From: a bacterium
GTDB taxonomy: Bacteria > Patescibacteriota > Minisyncoccia > Moranbacterales > GWC2-37-73
Assembly: GCA_003251635.1 (NCBI GenBank)
Contig: QKEW01000012.1
Span: 1-53,332, forward strand
Length of the DNA: 53,332 nt
Reading direction: 5' to 3'
In this document: positions 3,030 to 5,641 of the stretch, piece by piece
How the letters are laid out: every line of letters starts with the position of its first letter
Numbering within the stretch: position 1 is the stretch's first letter
Position numbers and translations under genes: made by a program
The notes under the pieces: generated by a model
Told to the model about the DNA's origin: nothing
Seen by the model: only the letters and a program-made list of their open reading frames with translations
Database searches by the model: none

Positions 3030-4727
3030 ATGAAAGGAAATAAAAAAATTAGAAATAGGTTTTGGGCAATAATGCTCTTGTTTGTTGTAACGGTAGTTAT
3101 TGCTTTTCCCCGAACGGTGGGATTTTGGCCGGCTCTCAAAGAGCGATTGGAAAAATTCGAGATCAGTTTGGGTCTGGATTTGCAAGGCGGGATTCATTTG
3201 GAATATTTGGCCAATACCTCCGAGATTGAGGATTCAAAAAAGGCCGAAGCTTTGCAGGCAGTGCAAGATGTGGTTGAAAGGCGAGTGAATGCTTTTGGGG
3301 TGGGTGAGCCTTTGGTCCAAACTTCCAAAAGTGGCAATGAGGATCGTTTGATTGTCGAATTGCCTGGTGTGGCTGACGTTGAAGAGGCTAAAAGTCGGAT
3401 CAAAGACACGCCGATTTTGGAGTTTCGTCAGGAAGCCGGACCGGAAAGTGAGGGTCAAAAAACTATAGATAATTTGAATTCACAATCTCAAGCCAAAGCT
3501 CAGGAAGTTTTGGATCGGGCTAAGAGTGGTGAAAATTTTGAAGATCTAGCCAAAGAATTCAGTCAGGATCCGGGAAGCCGTGATGAAGGCGGGGATTTGG
3601 GTTTTGTGAAAAAAGGAACTTTCGTGGCTCCTTTTGATGAGGTTTTGTTTGGAAAAAACTTGGCGGACGGAGAAATTTATGGCGAATTGGTGGAGAGTGA
3701 TTATGGTTGGCACATCATTCAAAAAGTTGAGCAACGGGGCGAAGGAGATAATTTGGAAATTCATGCCCGGCATATTTTGTTTCAAAAATGGAATTTGGAC
3801 ATGATTCCGCAGCTAGCCTATGAAGCTACTGGGCTAACTGGAAAAAATTTGAAAAATGCTCAAGTAGTTTTTAGCGGACAGGGAGTCAGTGAACCTCAGG
3901 TAGCTATTAAGTTTGATGATGAAGGTACCAAGCTTTTTGCTGAAATTACTAAAAATAATCTGGGTAAAAGTCTGGCCATCTTTTTAGATGGACAATTGCA
4001 AAGTGCGCCGACTGTGCAAAGTGAAATCACTGACGGAGAAGCGGTGATTACTGGAAATTTCACAGTGGATGACGCTAAGGATTTGGTGCGTCGACTCAAT
4101 GAGGGAGCTTTGCCTGTTTCTTTGGAATTGATTTCTCAACAAAGCGTGGAGGCCTCTTTGGGCGCTCAGTCTTTGACTAAAAGTTTGAAAGCCGGAATGA
4201 TTGGCTTGGCGGCTATTGTGATTTTCATGATTGTCTATTACCGATTTTTGGGTTTGGTGGCTTCTTTGGGCTTGTTGATCTACACCACCTTGATGATTTG
4301 CATCTTCAAGCTTTCCGGTGTTTTGAGTCCGTGGCCAATCACCTTGTCGCTTTCGGGTATTGCCGGATTTATTTTGACCATGGGAATGGCGGTGGATGCC
4401 AATGTTTTGATTTTTGAAAGAATTAAGGAAGAGATTCGCGAAGGTAAAAGCATCAGAAGAGCCTTGGAAGAAGGTTTCAGACGAGCTTGGCCAAGTATTC
4501 GCGATGGTAATCTTTCTACCATCCTAACTTCAGTGATTTTGATTTGGTTTGGAACCAGTTTTGTGAAAGGTTTTGCTTTGATTTTGGTAATCGGAGTTCT
4601 GGTTTCAATGTTCACAGCCATTGTTTTGGTTCAAAACATTTTGCGATTTTTGATTGGCCAATGGGCTGAAAAAAGACCTTGGCTTTTGGTGCGAATAGGT
4701 AAGAATAAGAATTTAAACGAGCAATAA
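3030..4727 (+). CDS. secD: Protein translocase subunit SecD with parvulin-like insertion
   Basis: SLGLDLQGGIHLEY, RLIVELPGV, LTGKNLKNAQV, GMAVDANVLIFERIKEEIREG; inserted EDLAKEFSQDPGSRDEGGDLGFVKKGTFVAPFDEVLF...YGWHIIQKV. Confidence 0.95.
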   Translation: MKGNKKIRNRFWAIMLLFVVTVVIAFPRTVGFWPALKERLEKFEISLGLDLQGGIHLEYLANTSEIEDSKKAEALQAVQDVVERRVNAFGVGEPLVQTSKSGNEDRLIVELPGVADVEEAKSRIKDTPILEFRQEAGPESEGQKTIDNLNSQSQAKAQEVLDRAKSGENFEDLAKEFSQDPGSRDEGGDLGFVKKGTFVAPFDEVLFGKNLADGEIYGELVESDYGWHIIQKVEQRGEGDNLEIHARHILFQKWNLDMIPQLAYEATGLTGKNLKNAQVVFSGQGVSEPQVAIKFDDEGTKLFAEITKNNLGKSLAIFLDGQLQSAPTVQSEITDGEAVITGNFTVDDAKDLVRRLNEGALPVSLELISQQSVEASLGAQSLTKSLKAGMIGLAAIVIFMIVYYRFLGLVASLGLLIYTTLMICIFKLSGVLSPWPITLSLSGIAGFILTMGMAVDANVLIFERIKEEIREGKSIRRALEEGFRRAWPSIRDGNLSTILTSVILIWFGTSFVKGFALILVIGVLVSMFTAIVLVQNILRFLIGQWAEKRPWLLVRIGKNKNLNEQ

Positions 4728-4729
4728 AA

Positions 4730-5641
4730 ATGTTTAATATTATTGGAAGAAGAAAATACGCCTATATTTTTTCCAGCTTTTTGGTGGCAGCTAGTTTGGT
4801 TTTTTTGGCAGCTTGGGGCCTGCGTCTGGGCATTGATTTTAAAGGCGGAACTTTGATGGAGATCAAGTTTTCAGCTGATAAAGAAATTTCCAAAGATCAA
4901 TTGCAAGAAGTTTTGGAGCCGGTGGTATTAGGCAGTTTGCAAATTCAGGCTAGTGAAAATGGAGCCTACATTTTGCGCTATGGAAATTCCGACGAGAATT
5001 CCAACAATGCGGCTTTTGAAAAAATCAAAGGCTTGGATGAAAATGTGGAGCAACTGCGGGTTGATTTCATCGGGGCTTCAATTTCTTCCCAGATTAAAAA
5101 AAGTGCCGGAGTGGCTTTATTTTTGGCAGTAGTTGGCATTGCGCTCTATGTGGCCTGGGCTTTTCGCAAAGTTTCCTATCCGGTTCCATCTTGGCAATAT
5201 GGCTTGGGAGCCATCATCGCTTTGGCTCATGACATCATCATAACCCTGGGAGTTTTTGCGGTCTTGGGACATTTTTGGCAAGTGGAAGTTGGAATTCCAT
5301 TTGTGGCGGCTCTGCTAACCATTTTGGGTTATTCAGTCAACGATACCATCGTGGTTTATGATCGTACTCGAGAAAATTTGCTCCGTTCTTCACGCAAAGA
5401 AGATTTTGAAAAGATCGTGAACAAATCAATCAATGAAACTTTAGCTCGCTCGATCAATTCTTCTTTGACGGTATTGGTAGTGTTGGTGGCAATAATTTTC
5501 TTTGGAGGTGAAACGTTGAAATATTTTTCTCTGGCACTTTTGGTGGGAATCGGATTCGGAACCTATTCGTCTGTCTATGTAGCCAGCGCTTTGTTGGTGA
5601 CCAGCTGGAAAAGAGGTTTGAAAAATAAGAGTAATAATTAA
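4730..5641 (+). CDS. secF: Protein translocase subunit SecF
   Basis: GIDFKGGTLMEIKF, GYSVNDTIVVYDRTREN; directly downstream of secD. Confidence 0.95.
   Translation: MFNIIGRRKYAYIFSSFLVAASLVFLAAWGLRLGIDFKGGTLMEIKFSADKEISKDQLQEVLEPVVLGSLQIQASENGAYILRYGNSDENSNNAAFEKIKGLDENVEQLRVDFIGASISSQIKKSAGVALFLAVVGIALYVAWAFRKVSYPVPSWQYGLGAIIALAHDIIITLGVFAVLGHFWQVEVGIPFVAALLTILGYSVNDTIVVYDRTRENLLRSSRKEDFEKIVNKSINETLARSINSSLTVLVVLVAIIFFGGETLKYFSLALLVGIGFGTYSSVYVASALLVTSWKRGLKNKSNN

Follow-up and report, generated by a model that had tools for sequence, protein, structure and literature searches.

The secD gene analyzed here is located in a 53,332-nt stretch of DNA from a Patescibacteriota bacterium (assembly GCA_003251635.1, contig QKEW01000012.1), herein referred to as the window. 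Its 565-aa product (3030..4727, plus strand, as are all SecD and SecF features below) contains a 131-aa insert in the extracytoplasmic P1 region, at the junction of the P1 base and the P1 head. Judging from its predicted structure, this insert is very probably a complete, circularly permuted parvulin of the PpiC/SurA type, most likely derived from a SurA-like tandem and most likely serving as a tethered peptidyl-prolyl isomerase (PPIase) or holdase.

Parvulin insert of SecD and its displaced first strand

An earlier note on this DNA, made from the sequence alone, had proposed an in-frame parvulin core within SecD; the open reading frame, the SecD identity, and the core were all borne out by profile searches. 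In the full protein, the Pfam profile Rotamase_3 matches residues 151-235 (E=2.3e-21) with 77 bits against a cut-off of 22.5, and Rotamase scores 69.6 bits against 21.7. The boundaries of the flanking SecD profiles delimit the insert to residues 135-265 (3432..3824); the interval noted earlier, 3457-3795, lies inside it. The parvulin core, from α1 to β4, comprises residues 141-236 (3450..3737) according to the Rotamase_3 and Rotamase matches and the predicted secondary structure. The Rotamase match begins only at profile position 15 of 97, so the first strand is absent ahead of the core. No ASHIL-type strand was found there, and scanning the 565-aa protein with a β1 profile, built solely from the canonical strands of SecDs with two parvulin cores (tandem SecDs), gave no β1-like match preceding the core. 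The best match starts at residue 243 (EIHARHILFQ, 21.9 bits; runner-up 10.6 bits), behind the core, where ARHILFQ had been placed by the earlier reading. The strand itself, herein referred to as β1′, is longer than that motif (residues 243-252, 3756..3785), and its partner active-site strand is YGWHII with the conserved His228. When the strand is placed ahead of the core in silico, the Rotamase_3 match extends to profile position 15 and gains 5 bits.

Conservation was counted per column on 114 distinct inserts taken from the order to which the bacterium belongs. The best β1 match falls within the last 30% of the insert in 110 of these. A chance HIL motif was excluded by the profile scan together with conservation. 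A canonical β1 contributed from upstream was likewise excluded: the domain model has only coil and then helix ahead of the core, and no β1-like match precedes it. The canonical order β1-α1-α2-α3-β2-α4-β3-β4 is not followed; β1 stands after β4, which amounts to a circular permutation.

The AlphaFold2 model of the insert, computed from seven aligned sequences, has a predicted local distance difference test (pLDDT) score of 90.2 and a predicted template modeling (pTM) score of 0.83. Its elements are helices 8-32, 37-44, 48-53, and 67-75 and strands 56-61, 93-103, and 110-119 (add 133 for SecD numbering), ordered α1-α2-α3-β2-α4-β3/β4-β1′, as in a canonical parvulin with the first strand shifted to the end. 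Strand β1′ (domain-model residues 110-119) is predicted at a pLDDT of about 97. In the full-length model (pLDDT 81.7, pTM 0.55), strands 226-236 and 243-252 recur, and the insert is located between SecD strands 130-135 and 264-270. In a Foldseek search of the insert against the PDB, the convincing matches were exclusively parvulins, including the canonical PrsA 6xd8 over 80 columns at 1.5 Å, in agreement with the fold that the earlier note had expected of an AlphaFold model. For the full-length model, SecDF crystal structures rank first.

Coevolution among 134 single-core inserts, equivalent to 103 effective sequences, was analyzed by mean-field direct coupling analysis (DCA). Pairs between β4 and β1′ account for 11 of the top 40 (1.6 expected), including H228-H248; most of them have residue sums of 473-480, the pattern of an antiparallel hairpin. 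The β2-β1′ pairs are also antiparallel (residue sums 434-436), and none of the top 40 couplings connects β2 with β4. These couplings place β1′ between β4 and β2, the canonical central position. In canonical parvulins, two conserved His residues are located in the two central strands (PMC5353683) and can hydrogen-bond to one another (PMC2678132). For the insert, too, a four-strand sheet with helices is predicted, with one His of the pair on each of the two middle strands, according to the model, the couplings, and the presence of both His228 and His248 in 104 of the 114 inserts.

The same order of elements is common to all 114 inserts. Among the core positions, F207 is kept in all 114, A157 and F170 in 113, L161 and G226 in 111, and D180 and H228 in 108. 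In and around β1′, the counts are 110 for I249, 108 for E243, 107 for L250, 105 for H248, and 102 for K253; His248 and the H-I-L pattern are kept in more than 90% of the order members. D180 occupies the position of the parvulin active-site Asp and opens the DPGS motif (D180-S183, 3567..3578). His228 (3711-3713) is located in β4 (residues 226-236, 3705..3737) and His248 (3771-3773) in β1′. Of the 10 inserts without the full pair, 5 have neither His, which indicates a tendency to joint loss (Fisher p=5e-6). The joint conservation of D180, H228, H248, F207, and S/T223 fits a working active site. In order members of family f4 (L276, L277, L280, L284, and L288-L290), the insert is retained and the active-site His and/or Asp are lost.

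The remaining parts of the protein form a SecD architecture of P1 base, P1 head, and membrane domain (PF21760, PF22599, PF02355; Foldseek). The SecD and parvulin portions each have matches in Pfam/NCBIfam and in the PDB. Assignment to SecD is supported by TIGR01129 (383.9 bits; curated cut-off 244.4), by the Pfam matches SecD_1st, SecDF_P1_head, and SecD_SecF_C, and by the adjacent downstream secF gene (4730..5641, 303 aa; TIGR00966, 283.2 bits), which carries no insert. The N-terminal part of the P1 base (residues 77-135, 3258..3434; PF21760) ends with the strand ILEFRQ (130-135 in the full-length model). The P1 head comprises residues 262-363 (3813..4118; PF22599, E=2.5e-31) and is followed by the resistance-nodulation-division (RND)-type membrane domain with long helices in the model (residues 364-541, 4119..4652; PF02355, E=3e-14).

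Possible origin and function, and alternative explanations

According to the proposed path, the chain would exit the P1 base at ILEFRQ, run through α1-α2-α3-β2-α4-β3-β4, make the tight turn RGEGDN (residues 237-242, 3738..3755, from alignments), return as β1′, and enter the P1 head. Strand β1′ would thereby occupy the central place of β1 between β4 and β2 and bring His248 beside His228. Such a permutation puts both termini at the β1/α1 junction, so that the domain can plug into a SecD loop, an arrangement supported by the prediction and by coevolution. A phmmer search aligned insert residues 12-119 in one stretch with SurA 168-273, a segment covering α1-β4 of parvulin 1, the RGE linker, and the opening strand of parvulin 2 (EVHARHILLK). 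Given this colinearity, the insert looks like a segment taken out of two parvulins in tandem, and circular permutations classically arise in this way; most likely, a SurA-like tandem was cut ahead of α1 of the first copy and past β1 of the second. We infer this origin from the alignment. Of the two options raised in the earlier note, circular permutation is supported by the predicted structure, the coupled columns, and the conserved His. The other, a second parvulin of which a single strand is left, probably gives the source of the strand. Since the strand apparently came from a downstream second parvulin, the two options are compatible, one describing the likely origin and the other the present fold, predicted to be a complete permuted parvulin.

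In E. coli, electron microscopy and AlphaFold put SurA at SecDF, and its P1/P2 parvulins have been modeled in contact with the P1 head (PMC9987972). Acting in cis, the domain fused into SecD would play the same part, holding emerging chains and isomerizing prolines where the site is intact. Most likely, it binds chains as they emerge from SecY and follows the swinging motion that protons drive in the P1 head; export and folding would be coupled in this way.

The genome also has one cyclophilin-family match, one FKBP-type match, and one other parvulin, so the SecD insert is not its only PPIase. This sole other parvulin (L110/L082, G000:C11:19477-19968, minus strand) is a 364-aa membrane-anchored SurA_N-like foldase. 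It has no strand ahead of its core and a β1-like strand, VRLRQIFVRK, after it, as do its relatives (L318-L330). Possibly, this standalone foldase shares the permutation of the SecD insert.

Several points weigh against a permuted, catalytic parvulin. The Fisher value for joint loss of the His residues ignores phylogeny, and active-site residues are lost in some lineages (family f4, L276/L277/L280/L284), so catalysis is not required everywhere. The pairing of β1′ with β4 is predicted from DSSP assignments, the spacing along the sequence, and couplings; with 103 effective sequences, the alignment used for DCA is small, and relatedness inflates couplings. The alignment for the domain model has 7 rows, pTM of the full-length model is just 0.55, and the gain in bits from reordering in silico is modest.

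The losses in some members of family f4 would suit a parvulin that has merely lost its first strand, with β1′ an unrelated strand or the relic of a second copy and the whole domain a non-catalytic leftover or spacer; the colinearity with SurA, which equates β1′ with the first strand of the following parvulin, can be read in the same way. However, such a leftover is highly improbable given that His248 and the H-I-L pattern are retained across the order, that β1′ couples with both β4 and β2, and that it is modeled with high confidence as an integral part of the sheet. A permuted and folded domain for which prolyl isomerization is irrelevant, and which only binds chains as a chaperone or recruits a partner as a platform, seems less probable than a working isomerase but more probable than a leftover. 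The dual-His double mutant of Pin1 stays active, so conservation of the His may be structural (PMC2678132); the jointly conserved Asp, His, Phe, and Ser/Thr positions nevertheless fit a working site. The chance that an assembly or frameshift artifact fused a parvulin gene to secD is negligible: one relative (L001/G010) does have the gene divided over contigs near the insert site, but secD and insert share one uninterrupted frame in more than 100 species genomes, and this recurrence refutes an artifact.

Distribution and tandem forms

Among 19 genomes of the family to which the bacterium belongs, 17 have a strong match to this stretch; the insert was found in all 17. Within the class, it was seen in the order of the window and in families f39, f52, and f88, and further single-core forms as well as tandem forms were found across the phylum. 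No insert was seen among the SecDs from outside Patescibacteria that were read, a small and non-systematic sample. In the class members L174, L175, and L176, the SecD frames are long (580-602 aa) and contain no parvulin. In the close relative G010 (G010:C5 and G010:C30), the SecD gene extends over two contigs, with the break near the β4-β1′ turn. At about 2998-3010 of L001, the sequence just upstream is a kinase-like frame on the opposite strand, probably an assembly join.

In a SecD tree built without the insert, three insert-less order members (G023, G024, and G111/L002) fall inside insert-bearing clades; thus, losses occur. Absence of the insert as the ancestral state within the order was rejected by the position of these three, which look like losses. 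Across the phylum, the tree has 12 state changes and is compatible with a single gain or several gains of the insert.

The RGEGDN turn is longer in some relatives, and in alignments of tandem SecDs a canonical parvulin occupies its site, giving the order core 1, ASHIL, core 2, final strand. Only in these proteins was an intact ASHIL found ahead of a core, an arrangement that the earlier note had named as contrary evidence; there, the strand is that of core 2, and core 1 has no leading strand of its own. In the 17 tandem forms resembling L003, L198-L218, and L296 (the two-core SecDs listed are L003, L198, L201-L209, L212-L215, L218, and L296), core 2 and the strand before it keep the His residues, and core 1 and the final strand mostly lack them. 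In the tandem SecD L214, the His are kept in both parvulins. This pattern suggests that core 1 and the final strand together represent a permuted parvulin in decay, whose β4-β1′ turn has taken up a canonical parvulin that is still intact. A broader scheme for Patescibacteria has about an even chance of being correct: a natural circularly permuted parvulin would occur in SecD and in the standalone membrane foldase, and some members of the phylum would later have acquired a canonical parvulin nested inside the permuted one, so that the proton-driven P1 head of their SecD would move a foldase of two layers.

Significance and comparison with known systems

No description of a circularly permuted parvulin or of a SecD-parvulin fusion was found in the open-access literature searched; automatic domain annotations of public databases may well already list a Rotamase domain in such SecDs. 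As far as that literature shows, no parvulin fold with a natural circular permutation had been noted before. Fusion in one chain is direct evidence from evolution for a place of parvulins at the SecDF P1 head, where the E. coli contact with SurA is so far low-resolution and predicted. It is also a physical, testable link between export and folding in Patescibacteria. The permuted domain is useful for asking which part of a parvulin carries folding and catalysis, as well as how reduced, host-dependent bacteria couple export with folding.

Among known systems, SurA of E. coli (PDB 1m5y) shares its layout with the insert: the insert is colinear with α1-β4 of SurA P1, the linker, and the first strand of P2 (EVHARHILLK versus EIHARHILFQ), and docking of SurA on the SecDF P1 head via P1/P2 has been proposed (PMC9987972). 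However, SurA is a separate periplasmic protein in which P1 has its own leading β1 and the P2 strand is part of a full second domain. The insert, which is part of SecD, has a single core with a single strand and no SurA_N, and so lacks the SurA_N core and two parvulins that define SurA. With PrsA/PpiC-type parvulins (PF00639/PF13616; 6xd8, 2jzv), it shares the core fold, the dual His, the DPGS Asp, and the conserved Phe and Ser/Thr positions; in the insert, however, β1 is last rather than first and the termini lie between β1 and α1. Known SecD/SecDF proteins (3aqp, 5xan, 5mg3) have the same P1 base, P1 head, and RND membrane domain, followed by SecF, whereas in the SecD of the window the base and the head are separated by a parvulin domain of 131 aa. 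The PpiD-YfgM complex at SecYEG also positions a parvulin at the translocon exit; in contrast to the insert, its components are separate membrane proteins, associated rather than fused (PMC9643414).
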